A DNA stretch of 64,000 nt from Phycisphaerae bacterium (GTDB lineage: Bacteria; Planctomycetota; Phycisphaerae; UBA1845), in the NCBI GenBank assembly GCA_024102815.1, contig JAGFJJ010000005.1, positions 1-64,000 on the forward strand, given 5' to 3'. A model generated the notes under the pieces. It saw only the letters and a list, made by a program, of their open reading frames with translations. It ran no database searches and had not been told where the DNA came from. Shown piece by piece: positions 18,864 through 64,000 of the stretch (the stretch's first letter is position 1; each line of letters starts with the position of its first letter). Both the position numbers and the translations under genes were made by a program.

Positions 18864-19186
18864 GTACGTAAGTTGATGAAAAGTCCACCAGTTGAGTAAT
18901 CAGGTCGGTTCAGTTTTGCTGATATTCCTCGCGCCCTGAAGTGCCAGATTCCGTCCGGGCTGAAAGGATCGCGTCCTCCGGAGCCGTCGAGTTATTCGTT
19001 GATGTTCCATCAAGCCGTCATGACTCGACGTTGAATCCGGAGCACTCTATTTTTTTCTCGAACGGCTTATGGAAATGATGAATCTTGACGTGATCGGACA
19101 CTTGCGCCGATGATATGTTTCTCGAGCCGACCATTCCGCGTCAACCGAATTTAGGGCCGAAATCCAAATACAGAGAGGGGACTGTC

Positions 19187-21979
19187 ATGCTGCTGCGTTC
19201 CGAGGTTCGCACGAATCGGGCATCGGGCTTTCTTTCATGCGCGAGTTCAGCGCCTGTCTTCCTGCTTGCGTTGGCCCTGTTGGCGCACTTGCCGGGGGGT
19301 ATCGTTCGGGCTGAATCCGGGGAGGTGCGTGCGTCGTCGCGGGATTCCGGGGAACGCAAGGACCGAAGCGAGGGCCGGGCGCAATCGGACACCGGGAATA
19401 GGGAGGCCGGAAAGGTGCTTGCAGGAACGGTCCTTGTTACGCCTTGTGATGCACTCATTCCGGGAGATGACCCGAATTCTGTCAACGATCGCGCGTCCAA
19501 TGGCGGGATTGATAGCCGCCGAACCAAGTCACGTGTCGCCATGCCGGCCTATTACGTCTGTACGCGGCAGGCCTCGTACAATATCGAAGACAACAAGCTT
19601 GTCGTGCGCGGGCTTTACCAATCTCCGAGGCGGGCGCCGATCATTCGGTTGATCGACGACGCCACGAACATCGAACTCGCCTCGTTCACACCGGAAGGCC
19701 GGGGGGGCGCTTTCGAATTCGAAGTCGATGGAATACTCGGTCCCCCCTGCAATATCCGGGTCGAAATGAACCCCTACGCCTACCAGGCCGGCGTCCAGGG
19801 TGCTCCCGCGTCGTGCCAAGGCACAGGGGGAGGCAACCATCCGCCGGTCTGCGGGATTCTCCTTCCCGCCGGCGATGTCAGTATCCACCTGGGAGAGTCT
19901 GTCTACTTCTCCGGAACCGCCACCGACCCGGATGGGACGGCGGGCCTGACGTTCGAATGGGACTTTCACGGCGGAGCCGATGAGCGGCCTACTGTTCTCG
20001 TACCGGGCCCCGTCGTGTTTGACCTTGCCGACGGCAGCTTCCTTGCAACGTTCAAGGCTACCGACGTGAATGGTGCTACCTGCACGGACAGCGTGACGGT
20101 CAACGTGGGGTTGCCGCCTGACGGGCTTCCGCCGATGGTCGCGCAGCAGCCCGCGCCGGGCGAGCCGGGCTCCGGCAGTACATCGCACGTTGTGTTGCCC
20201 TTCAACGACCTGGGCATGCACTGCGGTGATCTTTCTTCCGTACCCTTCGCGGTTCTTCCTCCATTCAACACGTTGAACGCTCAGGTGGTGCGTCGAGGCC
20301 TTTCCTCGAATCAGCCGCCCGAGATTGAGGATGATACCTTCATTGACTTGCGATACTCGGCGGCGTCCAACCCGAACGATCCGGTAGGACCGGGGTCGAT
20401 CAATTCGACCAGTCAGAATTACCCCGTCGGTGCAAAGCTCCGCGATGCGACGGTACGCAAGACGGACTTCTGGGATGTTGACGAGACCACCGGCTCAACG
20501 ATTGCGTCTCTTTTGTTCCCGGGACTGGATCCGCTATCGGATGAAGGGCTGCAGACGATCGACAACCCCGACCACGGACGGTACATGCCCGGTATCGCGA
20601 ATCCCTACTACGCGAACGATCCGCAGTTGTTTGGAAAATACCTCGAAGAGAAGACCTGGTTTACCGCCCAGGGCATCCCGATGACGAGTGTCGATGATGG
20701 CGGTCGGCCGAACTCCTACCCCCTCATGCGCGTGCAAGCCATTGAGAGGTCGACGGGCGAGGTGTTGGCGACTACCGATGCGGTCGTTCCCGTTTCTTCG
20801 GAGGTCGATTGTCGCGACTGCCATGCGTTCGGCCTGGTCGGCGCCGATCCGACGGCCCGGGCCTCGGGTCCTGCGTTCGTTCCGCCGGCCACGCAGGATC
20901 GCCTCGACCTGGAGACTTCGGCCAAGGCCAACATCATCCTTCTGCATGACTATAAGCACGGTACGTCACTGGCGAGCAATTCGGACCCGATCCTATGTGC
21001 TGCGTGCCATCGGTCCAATGCGCTGGCGGTTGTGGGTGGTCCAGGGGGAGATCCGGCACGCGACAGCATGTCCCGCGTGACGCACGGGTTGCATGGAAGA
21101 CTGCAACTCGACGGGCAGGGATCGCTATTGCGCGACGCCGCGGGAGAGCCGATTCTGATCAATCCGAACAATATCTCTCCGGATCAGGTGCCCTTGATTC
21201 CCGTCGGCCTGGATGATCCGATGGAGTCCAACTGTTTCCTCTGCCATCCCGGGAAGATCACGCAATGCTTCCGAGGCGCCATGTACACGGCCGGACAGAC
21301 GTGTGTCTCTTGTCACGGTGGTATGCTGGCTGTCGCCGGGGAGTACCCGCTTTCGAGCGGGCAGGCGCGTACGCCGTGGGCTGACGAGCCGCGCTGCGGA
21401 TCGTGCCATCATGGCATGGGTGAGATGGCCGTGTATACGGAGGCATACGCTGCAGGTGACCCAGCGGCAGAACCAATGCCGCCCCTGACATCCCGGTTCG
21501 CGGAAAACGTCGGCACCCTCTACCGCGACAGCCTCGACAGTCATGCGGGCGTAGCGTGCGAGGCGTGCCACGGCAGTCCGCACGCGATCTGGCCGCACCG
21601 CGACGAGAACGCCAACGACAACGTGGCCGCGATTCAGCTCCAGGGGTATGTCGGTCCCATTCGCGAATGCACGGTCTGCCATGAACCGGGTAGTTTCCCG
21701 AACGGCACGTTGTCTGGCCCACACGGAATGCACCCGGTGAACGATCCGAACTGGATCAAGGGCGAAGGACAATGGCACGGGGAGTACGCCAAGAATCATA
21801 ACGGCGGTGATCGATGTGCCGCGTGTCACGGCGCGGACCACCGGGGCACACGGTTGTCGCGCGTGCCGGTTAACCGTGTGCTACGAGATGCTGAAGGGCG
21901 CATTCGTACAACGCTGAACGCGGGTGACATCGTTTCGTGCGATCTCTGCCACAGCCTCGGAACCAGCTTTGAGGATTGA
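19187..21979 (+). CDS. secreted nine-heme cytochrome c with a PKD domain
   Basis: A 930-residue exported protein. After a signal peptide (VFLLALALLAHLPGGIVRA) come a region of unknown fold, a PKD-type beta-sandwich (near residues 210-310, with HLGESVYFSGTATDPDG), and a C-terminal two-thirds containing nine CxxCH heme motifs: CRDCH, CAACH, CFLCH, CVSCH, CGSCH, CEACH, CTVCH, CAACH and CDLCH. It is predicted to carry electrons outside the inner membrane, perhaps at the cell surface. ATG 19187 has GAGAGGGG upstream; the longer open frame lacks a site. It stands alone, with no maturation genes nearby. Confidence 0.85.
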   Translation: MLLRSEVRTNRASGFLSCASSAPVFLLALALLAHLPGGIVRAESGEVRASSRDSGERKDRSEGRAQSDTGNREAGKVLAGTVLVTPCDALIPGDDPNSVNDRASNGGIDSRRTKSRVAMPAYYVCTRQASYNIEDNKLVVRGLYQSPRRAPIIRLIDDATNIELASFTPEGRGGAFEFEVDGILGPPCNIRVEMNPYAYQAGVQGAPASCQGTGGGNHPPVCGILLPAGDVSIHLGESVYFSGTATDPDGTAGLTFEWDFHGGADERPTVLVPGPVVFDLADGSFLATFKATDVNGATCTDSVTVNVGLPPDGLPPMVAQQPAPGEPGSGSTSHVVLPFNDLGMHCGDLSSVPFAVLPPFNTLNAQVVRRGLSSNQPPEIEDDTFIDLRYSAASNPNDPVGPGSINSTSQNYPVGAKLRDATVRKTDFWDVDETTGSTIASLLFPGLDPLSDEGLQTIDNPDHGRYMPGIANPYYANDPQLFGKYLEEKTWFTAQGIPMTSVDDGGRPNSYPLMRVQAIERSTGEVLATTDAVVPVSSEVDCRDCHAFGLVGADPTARASGPAFVPPATQDRLDLETSAKANIILLHDYKHGTSLASNSDPILCAACHRSNALAVVGGPGGDPARDSMSRVTHGLHGRLQLDGQGSLLRDAAGEPILINPNNISPDQVPLIPVGLDDPMESNCFLCHPGKITQCFRGAMYTAGQTCVSCHGGMLAVAGEYPLSSGQARTPWADEPRCGSCHHGMGEMAVYTEAYAAGDPAAEPMPPLTSRFAENVGTLYRDSLDSHAGVACEACHGSPHAIWPHRDENANDNVAAIQLQGYVGPIRECTVCHEPGSFPNGTLSGPHGMHPVNDPNWIKGEGQWHGEYAKNHNGGDRCAACHGADHRGTRLSRVPVNRVLRDAEGRIRTTLNAGDIVSCDLCHSLGTSFED

Positions 21980-61282: not shown

Positions 61283-63466
61283 CTATTCTCTCCCGCCGCT
61301 CCCGCCGCCACGACCTGAGTCTCCCTTGGTATTCCCTTCTCCTGTAGAGGCGGAAGCCGTTTCGTCTTCCCCGTCAGGGGCGGTCGCCGTTCCCCGAAGC
61401 CGCTCCTCCGCGTCAGGCGCGTGGTAATTACCGCTTCCGGCTTCCTCTTCATCCTCCAGGCGCACGGTGAACAATCGTGCCTTCAGTCGCGGTCCTTCGG
61501 GATGCTCGTGGGCGTACATGTCCCGTGGCATCCGCCCGGCAAGCCACGCCGTGTTCATCGGGTAGGCCGCCGGGCTGAACATCGTGCCGTAGATGTGCCA
61601 CACCAGGATGGCCAAGGTTGCCAGCCAGGCCTCGTAATAGTGAATGACTAGGGCGACGTCGAGCACGCCCTTGGGCAATCCGAGCGACTGGACAAAGAAA
61701 TTATCAAACCAGAGGAGAAGTCCGGTGACGGTCATGATGATCGTTCCCCAGACCAGCGCCCAATATTCGGCCTTTTCCATGTAGCTGAAACGCTTGAATC
61801 CCGGCGGGTGCGATCGCCGTCCCAGGAAGTACTGGATGTTCTCACCCAGGTGGCGAAGGTCGTAGATTCGCATGGAGATGTCCTTGACGCACTGCCAGCC
61901 GCGCGGCGTGATCAAGTAAAACAGATGCCAGATCGAGGTCAGGATCAGAATGACCGCGGCCACGCGGTGAACGATGCCGCGGATTTCAAAGCCGCCCGTC
62001 CAGCCGAAGAGAAGCTTGACCCAGCCCGCCTCGGAAAAACGCAGGGAGAAGCCCGAAATCACCAGCACGGTAAACGAAATCATCAGCGCCCAGTGCTGCA
62101 TAACCTCGTTCATGCTGAGCCGTTGCACGAACGGACGTTTCCCCAGGTTGCGCACGAACCGCAGCCAATCCGCTCCATTGTGCAGGAGCATGCCGCCGAT
62201 CGTGCCCACAATGAGCACGATATACAGATTTCGGAAGAACTCGGGCCAACCCGCATAGAGCCCGGTTGCCGTCGAGTGGATCGGCGTCTTGGCCAGTTCT
62301 GCGGAGATGCCCGGATGGCACTCACCGCAGGTGTGCTGAAGATTGGCCGCGTTGATTGATGAATTCGGATTTGAGGACGGCAGGATGCGGTGCGCGCCGT
62401 GACAGGACGCGCAGTTGGCCACGTGCACGTCGCCGGCCTTGCTCTTCAGGCCGTGGTAGCTGTCGATGTACGACCGCAATCGACCGCTGGGAATCCCGTA
62501 TTTCTCGTTGAGCACGACGGATTCGTGGCAGGGCGCGCAAGTGTCCTCGGCCACGCGCGCCGAACTCACCGGCGAACGTGGATCCTTAGGCGAGATGATC
62601 CCGTGCTCGCCGTGACACGTCGTACACACCGGAGAATCGACCGAGCCCCGTTCCGTGACGAGAATGCCGTGGATTCCTTCCAGGTAGTCCTTGGTGACGG
62701 ATTCATGACACTGGCCGCAAGTATTCGGAATATTGAAGTGGTAAATCGTCGATTCCGGGTTGCCTGCGCCGAGAATGCGGTGCGCGGTGCGCTTTCCGTC
62801 AGGATCCTTGGCGGAGTGGCAGTCGTTGCAGGTCGCCGATACGTAAAGGCCCTTGCGACTTGCCTGGCCATGAACGCTGCTTTCGTACAGCTTGATGGGC
62901 TCCTCGCGAAGGTACTCGTGCCGCTTGACCAGGTTCACATCGGTGTGGCAGGACTCGCACGTCTCCGGCAGATTAATCGGGTGAACATGCGAGCGGCGGT
63001 CCGTCGTGGGGAGTACGTCGTGGGCGCCGTGACAGCTCCAGCAGGAAGGCATGTCCGGGTCCGTGTTGACCTTCAGCCGGCCGTGCATCTTGTACACCGA
63101 CGCCGCTTCATCGTGACATTCACCACAGGTTTCTGTGCCCACTTCCGGTACATCCGGCCCGTGCGGGTTTGCCGAGCTGAAGTCGAGGTCGTCCATCGAA
63201 ATCGTCATGTGACAGTCAGTGCAATCCAGATCGACGTGCGTCGAGTCCTTGAGCATCTGCGCCGGCGGAAGGGGTTCGTTCAGGGCGATGCGATCGGCAT
63301 GACAATCGGCGCAGCTCGTTGGGTTTGCGGGGTAGTCGACCGAAACCGGCGCGGCCGTGACTTCCTCACCCGCTGCGGGTACGGGCGCCACCTCCTGGGC
63401 GGGGGTCGACTGCGCGATCCAGCCAAGCATCAAACCCAGCATCAGCGTGGACATTCGTGCCGACAT
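61283..63466 (-). CDS. eleven-heme cytochrome c fused to a cytochrome b561-type membrane domain
   Basis: A 727-residue protein. After a signal peptide (LMLGLMLGWIAQSTPAQ) the first 400 residues carry eleven CxxCH motifs: CADCH, CTDCH, CGECH, CWSCH, CESCH, CNDCH, CGQCH, CTTCH, CAPCH, CASCH, CGECH. A membrane helix (FFRNLYIVLIVGTIGGML) then leads into a four-helix b561-like domain with probable heme-b histidines in MQHWALM, IVHRVAA, SIWHLFYL, VIHYYEA and LVWHIYG, and an acidic tail. It should take electrons from quinol to periplasmic hemes. ATG 63466 follows AGGGAGAG. Confidence 0.9.
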   Translation of the reverse strand: MSARMSTLMLGLMLGWIAQSTPAQEVAPVPAAGEEVTAAPVSVDYPANPTSCADCHADRIALNEPLPPAQMLKDSTHVDLDCTDCHMTISMDDLDFSSANPHGPDVPEVGTETCGECHDEAASVYKMHGRLKVNTDPDMPSCWSCHGAHDVLPTTDRRSHVHPINLPETCESCHTDVNLVKRHEYLREEPIKLYESSVHGQASRKGLYVSATCNDCHSAKDPDGKRTAHRILGAGNPESTIYHFNIPNTCGQCHESVTKDYLEGIHGILVTERGSVDSPVCTTCHGEHGIISPKDPRSPVSSARVAEDTCAPCHESVVLNEKYGIPSGRLRSYIDSYHGLKSKAGDVHVANCASCHGAHRILPSSNPNSSINAANLQHTCGECHPGISAELAKTPIHSTATGLYAGWPEFFRNLYIVLIVGTIGGMLLHNGADWLRFVRNLGKRPFVQRLSMNEVMQHWALMISFTVLVISGFSLRFSEAGWVKLLFGWTGGFEIRGIVHRVAAVILILTSIWHLFYLITPRGWQCVKDISMRIYDLRHLGENIQYFLGRRSHPPGFKRFSYMEKAEYWALVWGTIIMTVTGLLLWFDNFFVQSLGLPKGVLDVALVIHYYEAWLATLAILVWHIYGTMFSPAAYPMNTAWLAGRMPRDMYAHEHPEGPRLKARLFTVRLEDEEEAGSGNYHAPDAEERLRGTATAPDGEDETASASTGEGNTKGDSGRGGGSGGRE

Positions 63467-63537
63467 ATTCACTCTCCCTTGATCCGGCGATGGCCCGATC
63501 GTGCTCCTTGCAAAGGCCGGGTTCGGCACCGACGAAA

Positions 63538-64000
63538 CTACTTCGGCGTATTCGGAATCACCGCGACCGGCCCGGGTCGCTTGTCGGGGAACGAAATTCC
63601 CTCGTCCTCGTCATGACACGAAGTACATGCCGGAGGCTCGTCAAACTTCCGATCTTCGTGGCAGTCCTCACAGTCGAAGGACCCATGCTCCTCGTTGAGA
63701 ATCTGTCCCGTCACGGCATGATCAAACGTCTCCGACGACCAGTCCGCATGGCACACGTTGCACTCCCGCGGACGGGACGTAAACGGCGTCGTCTTGTGAC
63801 ACGTCCGGCAGTTGCGACCCGCGTGGAAACGGTTGAGCGGCCAGCCCGTCCGGGCGTGATCGAACGGCGGCGGCATCGGCTCTCCCTCGGCAAAGTGGCA
63901 GTGATTGCAGCGTTGCGGCGATTCGACGTCGTGGCACTCCGCACAAGGACGATGATGTTCATCGAGCGTGCGAACCTGCTGAACGTGCTGTTTTCCGTTC
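63538..64000 (-). CDS. multiheme cytochrome c, cut by the right edge
   Basis: The frame is open to the end of the window, so the gene begins beyond position 64000. The visible 153 residues contain six CxxCH motifs: CAECH, CNHCH, CRTCH, CNVCH, CEDCH and CTSCH, with extra histidines between them (FDHARTG, FDHAVTG, NEEHGS) that could be second axial ligands. It lies 71 bases before the eleven-heme gene and is probably co-transcribed and functionally paired with it. Confidence 0.85.
   Translation of the reverse strand, partial: NGKQHVQQVRTLDEHHRPCAECHDVESPQRCNHCHFAEGEPMPPPFDHARTGWPLNRFHAGRNCRTCHKTTPFTSRPRECNVCHADWSSETFDHAVTGQILNEEHGSFDCEDCHEDRKFDEPPACTSCHDEDEGISFPDKRPGPVAVIPNTPK

Follow-up and report, generated by a model that had tools for sequence, protein, structure and literature searches.

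Closest described systems

The protein studied here, P0001, joins a multiheme c-type domain to a b-type membrane domain in one chain. This design has already been described in the CbcL/MtrH/MtoC proteins of metal-respiring bacteria and occurs in a wide range of bacterial phyla. A 2018 survey of the family listed homologues in 15 phyla including Planctomycetes, for which two were tabulated, with chains of 416-1034 residues that carry 3-23 CxxCH motifs, resemble HydC/FdnI and span the membrane with six helices in most cases and five in some; c-cytochrome genes adjoin theirs (PMC6295460). The proteins are presumed to act as quinol oxidase or quinone reductase (PMC6295460, PMC9129911), and the survey found no sequence feature separating the quinol oxidisers (CbcL, MtrH) from the quinone reducers (MtoC) (PMC6295460). 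CbcL has been characterised biochemically: its nine c hemes have bis-histidine ligation, its b domain binds two hemes, and the linking of the quinone pool with periplasmic hemes in one chain is its accepted reading (PMC9129911).

The b domain also has a counterpart in E. coli FdnI (formate dehydrogenase-N gamma, 1KQF chain C), a four-helix domain with the same four histidines as P0001. FdnI lacks c hemes, forms a subunit of its own, receives its electrons from an Fe-S subunit and operates in the quinone-reducing direction, from formate. The genes around P0001 recall the Desulfovibrio Hmc complex (HmcA-F) as well as Geobacter CbcSTU and Shewanella SirCD, in which a 4Fe-4S protein is likewise combined with an NrfD/PsrC- or b-type membrane protein and a multiheme c partner. 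These CbcSTU/SirCD modules are linked to the quinol pool (PMC11434368), and CbcS is a 4-heme protein (PMC10989804).

Gene and domain organization of P0001

The window is the whole stretch of DNA that was analysed, 64,000 nucleotides forming positions 1-64000 of contig C5 (231 kb) in a draft genome of 5.09 Mb that is 95% complete. The gene of P0001 and the parts of its product are as follows.

61283..63466, minus strand: P0001, fusion of an 11-heme c domain with a putative diheme b domain, 727 aa (coding 61286-63466, stop codon at 61283)
Residues ~1-23: signal peptide, from the appearance of the N-terminus
Residues ~46-400: c domain
Residues 407-440: membrane helix preceding the b domain
Residues 443-675: b561/FdnI-like four-helix domain
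Residues 677-727: disordered tail

A putative ribosome site (gggagag) lies 5' of the ATG at 63466. Pfam places Cytochrome_C7 and related c-heme models in the N-terminal half and PF01292 (b561) in the C-terminal half, the latter at 58.3 bits (cut-off 30.1); the NCBIfam matches are all below cut-off, with the formate dehydrogenase gamma subunit at the top. Hydropathy and an AlphaFold model (mean pLDDT 81.4, pTM 0.71) both yield five membrane helices, modelled at residues 407-440, 452-476, 492-518, 562-586 and 599-630, in agreement with the membrane helix and four b561-like helices read by an earlier note made from the DNA letters. Misassembly or a chance fusion can be ruled out, because the identical fusion is shared by 70 aligned relatives from independent assemblies in about 12 phyla. 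We regard the gene as real; its single chain is predicted to be a membrane protein that binds eleven c-type hemes and probably two of b type.

Exactly 11 CxxCH motifs are present, where the earlier note had claimed at least eleven (residues 52, 82, 114, 142, 170, 213, 250, 281, 310, 352 and 380); residue-shuffled versions of the chain hold a mean of 0.03 and a maximum of 1. No CX3CH, CX4CH or CxxCK site occurs in P0001. In an alignment of 71 rows (A2), composed of P0001 and 70 relatives at 37-61% identity to it, all 11 motifs are kept in at least 70 rows, and 11 extra histidines (77, 102, 128, 149, 199, 229, 266, 288, 338, 359 and 397) are kept in 70-71. This conservation points to one candidate distal histidine ligand per c heme, and since each of the eleven hemes has such a conserved candidate, there is no obvious five-coordinate heme. 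In L064, the only member with 13 CxxCH to have been mapped, the two additional motifs are inserted after residue 175. The best structural match of the c domain is MtrA of the Mtr complex, at a Z of 8.1 that is too weak to claim a common fold.

Within the membrane domain, H458, H500, H609 and H624 are kept in 70-71 of the 71 rows; their aligned counterparts in E. coli FdnI are H18, H57, H155 and H169, which we take to be the b-heme ligands of that protein (1KQF); the paired b-heme histidines of the earlier note are thereby located. The modelled b domain matches FdnI well ahead of any other chain, in Foldseek (1kqf_C, E 6.7e-5, TM (target) 0.81) and in the VIA comparison (Z 16.4 over 206 residues, rmsd 3.3; next chain Z 11.6). 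Because the c domain is taken as periplasmic, H458 and H624 are assigned to the cytoplasmic side and H500 and H609 to the periplasmic side, a topology that suggests one b heme per membrane face in the model. Outside these four FdnI-type ligands, the membrane histidines H514 (70/71) and H429 (65/71) are also conserved in the alignment, and may mark a quinone site or another heme. A sequence search found no solved structure of a c/b fusion.

Comparison with CbcL of G. sulfurreducens places the protein more closely. Both have an N-terminal periplasmic multiheme c domain and a C-terminal HydC/FdnI-like diheme b domain, whereas P0001 has 11 c hemes against 9, five membrane helices against six, and, unlike CbcL, an operon that also encodes Hmc-like proteins and a 19-heme sister fusion. 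Its 11 CxxCH motifs follow the signal peptide in the N-terminal periplasmic domain and lie within the range of 3-23 for the family, the HydC/FdnI-like b-type domain is in the same chain (PF01292; FdnI Z 16.4), membrane histidines for b hemes are conserved (H458, H500, H609 and H624), and the five helices are the minority form in the survey (PMC6295460). As judged from sequence, P0001 fits every family feature tested, its likeness to CbcL being one of architecture. The earlier note had proposed that one chain could link the quinone pool to periplasmic hemes with no separate b subunit, which is possible in principle, as CbcL illustrates (PMC9129911). It had also named a close characterised homologue of the same architecture as evidence against its reading, and CbcL, characterised and alike in layout, is largely that homologue. 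That reading was partly supported: right on the class of mechanism and overstated on novelty.

A five-gene electron-transfer operon

Reading the contig past 64000, as the earlier note had advised, revealed further cytochromes (the rest of P0002 and the 19-heme P0005) and showed that P0001 is the last gene of a five-gene redox unit with the order 19-heme c/b fusion, HmcB-like Fe-S protein, NrfD/HmcC-like protein, 13-heme cytochrome and 11-heme c/b fusion. The other four genes are listed below.

63538..64000 in the window and on to contig position 64797, minus strand: P0002, 13-CxxCH periplasmic cytochrome with partial HmcA-like similarity, 419 aa
Contig C5 64803-66002, minus strand: P0003, NrfD/HmcC-like by profile matches, 399 aa
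Contig C5 65999-67000, minus strand: P0004, HmcB-like Fe-S protein by profile match, 333 aa
Contig C5 67255-70149, minus strand: P0005, 19-heme c/b fusion with 19 CxxCH and a b561-type domain, 964 aa

The spacing within the unit is tight, with a 5-bp gap and a 4-bp overlap. P0002 is the upstream cytochrome of at least six hemes that had been seen to run off the window; its C-terminal 153 residues, with 6 CxxCH, lie inside, and the complete gene is found on the contig. P0004 has a twin-arginine-like N-terminus, and P0003 scores 365.9 bits as HybB-like. The b561-type domain of P0005 reaches 26.5 bits against the Pfam cut-off of 30.1, and 31.1 bits when the family is searched against the genome; P0005 also has an extra C-terminal helix relative to P0001. 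The gene downstream of P0001 is convergent-independent, carboxypeptidase-like by eye and without a heme motif.

P0004, P0003 and, in part, P0002 resemble HmcB, HmcC and HmcA, respectively. The likeness stops short of the equivalog level for P0004 (334.8 vs 420 bits) and P0003 (301.9 vs 550 bits), and P0002, with 13 CxxCH against the 16 hemes of HmcA, scores 64.8 vs 400 bits. Among the genes neighbouring P0001 nothing recognisable as HmcD, HmcE or HmcF was found, and two c/b fusions are present there instead. By analogy, the Fe-S, NrfD and multiheme module of the operon is taken to work like CbcSTU or SirCD, which lack the c/b fusion found here. The five-gene operon is the new part and may be called somewhat new: a search of the open-licence PMC literature found no description of two c/b-fusion paralogues paired with an Hmc-like module, 'not described' being a weak statement at that scope.

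Distribution and phylogeny

A single scan of genome contigs gave at least 581 confirmed relatives of P0001, and fusions of this type occur in hundreds of genomes from about 12 phyla. The best 80 of these relatives, which were taken further, come from Planctomycetota (Phycisphaerales), Acidobacteriota, Zixibacteria, Aminicenantes, Neomarinimicrobiota, Latescibacterota, Gemmatimonadota, Krumholzibacteria, Calditrichota, Bacteroidota, Ignavibacteria, NC10 and others; Geobacter is not among these best 80. A relative with 38% identity occurs in the isolate Geothrix fuzhouensis, and the only plasmid match is a distant one to the b domain, in Haladaptatus. The earlier note considered such a protein not standard in planctomycetes. 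This is only partly right: 25 of 246 genomes sampled across the phylum carry a relative at E <= 1e-60, 44 of 60 kin genomes have a match at E <= 1e-20, most members of the genome's own family carry a relative, and two planctomycete homologues were on record in 2018 (PMC6295460). Linking of quinone pool and long c-heme chains in the CbcL manner is thus common in one planctomycete family and in many uncultured phyla.

A quick b-domain tree parts the 11-heme from the 19-heme form on one branch (100% SH-aLRT); each form occurs in several phyla, and the planctomycete 11-heme proteins cluster together. The two paralogues recur side by side, being at most 4 kb apart in 18 of the 49 loci with enough flank. 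In several phyla the 19-heme form is split into an adjacent c gene and b gene (L064, L071, L091, L098 and others), several Ignavibacteria and Bacteroidetes loci showing this, and fused and separate forms therefore coexist. NapC/ImcH-like genes adjoin P0001 relatives in other genomes, and the window's own genome has an ImcH-like gene.

Proposed mechanism and alternatives

We consider it likely that P0001 acts in the inner membrane as a quinone:periplasmic-cytochrome oxidoreductase of CbcL/MtrH/MtoC type. Its two b hemes would be stacked across the membrane, H458 and H624 holding one near the cytoplasmic face and H500 and H609 the other near the periplasmic face, with a quinone site near the cytoplasmic-side heme. 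Electrons would pass between quinol and the eleven putative bis-histidine c hemes of the covalently joined periplasmic domain, and thence to partner cytochromes, the likeliest being the 13-heme P0002 of the same operon. The Fe-S and NrfD subunits would form another quinone-active module, of HmcBC/CbcTU type, and the 19-heme P0005 a third, all three probably feeding one periplasmic heme pool. Counting against this explanation are the variable operon order, the many P0001 relatives without Hmc-like genes and the quinone-reducing direction in which FdnI itself works.

Electrons probably flow from quinol to periplasmic or extracellular acceptors, and the operon probably serves extracellular or periplasmic respiration. 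The outer-membrane porin that the earlier note proposed to look for did not appear: MtrB/PioB (PF11854) has no match in the genome (95% complete), and an extracellular acceptor is therefore only a possibility. If these planctomycetes do respire extracellular acceptors, the operon would represent the inner-membrane end of the route. Flow in reverse, from a periplasmic or extracellular donor through the c hemes to quinone reduction at the cytoplasmic-side b heme, is possible, if rather unlikely. It has been proposed for MtoC of Fe(II) oxidisers and would conserve energy, because protons would be taken from the cytoplasm. The FdnI-like b domain with its four shared ligands is consistent with it, and so is the failure of sequence features to part oxidisers from reducers (PMC6295460). 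Against it, no donor oxidase adjoins P0001, the MtrB/PioB porin is missing, and the ImcH-like neighbours found in other phyla are commonly interpreted as quinol oxidases (PMC6295460).

P0001 could instead be a subunit of one extended Hmc-like complex of all five products, with three quinone-active modules, and not an independent enzyme. The tight gene spacing would suit such a complex, and all five gene types occur together in two other loci (L118 and L125), with partial sets in variable order in four more (L117, L119, L120 and L127). This is nevertheless doubtful, as HmcB/NrfD-like genes are within reach of the 11-heme fusion in just 4 of the 49 other-genome loci with enough flank, and the fusion stands alone in several relatives and, as a third c/b fusion 54% identical to P0001, on contig C48 of the same genome. 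The earlier note had called the protein a self-contained electron wire; the lone paralogue suggests that it can stand alone, whereas P0001 itself ends a five-gene unit. Equally doubtful is the bolder idea that two distinct old c/b fusions, one with 11 and one with 19 c hemes, join an HmcBC-like module in one composite respiratory complex around a common periplasmic heme network; were it true, several quinone sites at different potentials would feed or draw from one wire in Phycisphaerae. A role of the c domain as a multiheme reductase (for nitrite, hydroxylamine, sulfite or the like), and not as a wire, is most improbable, since the weak profile or structural similarity of some of its parts to MccA, cytochrome c nitrite reductase and HAO family proteins is opposed by conserved distal-histidine candidates for all eleven hemes (at least 70 of 71 sequences) and by the absence of CX3CH, CX4CH and CxxCK sites.

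Other multiheme loci in the genome

Further multiheme genes were observed outside the operon. Within the window, a 961-aa open frame (19094-21976, plus strand) has 9 CxxCH, matches of cytochrome c7 type at its C-terminus and, below cut-off, a PKD-like match, and possibly encodes a surface multiheme cytochrome. A cluster on contig C76 (L143:3367-12901) comprises multiheme cytochromes with 11, 5, 4 and 13 CxxCH, two NHL- or propeller-like proteins, and a 744-aa protein that is beta-barrel-like by eye, ends in phenylalanine and has no Pfam match; it is a candidate porin-cytochrome conduit of unclassified type. On contig C10 (L139:5394-15396), a 13-CxxCH cytochrome has two neighbours, a protein of 10 helices and one of 391 aa, which may be NrfD and Fe-S proteins, and a 1063-aa NHL/13-CxxCH protein is also encoded there. 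On contig C7 (L138:3654-9125), a gene for cytochrome b/b6 is flanked by genes for a 9-CxxCH cytochrome and for a NapC/ImcH-like protein that has 9 CxxCH and three membrane helices.
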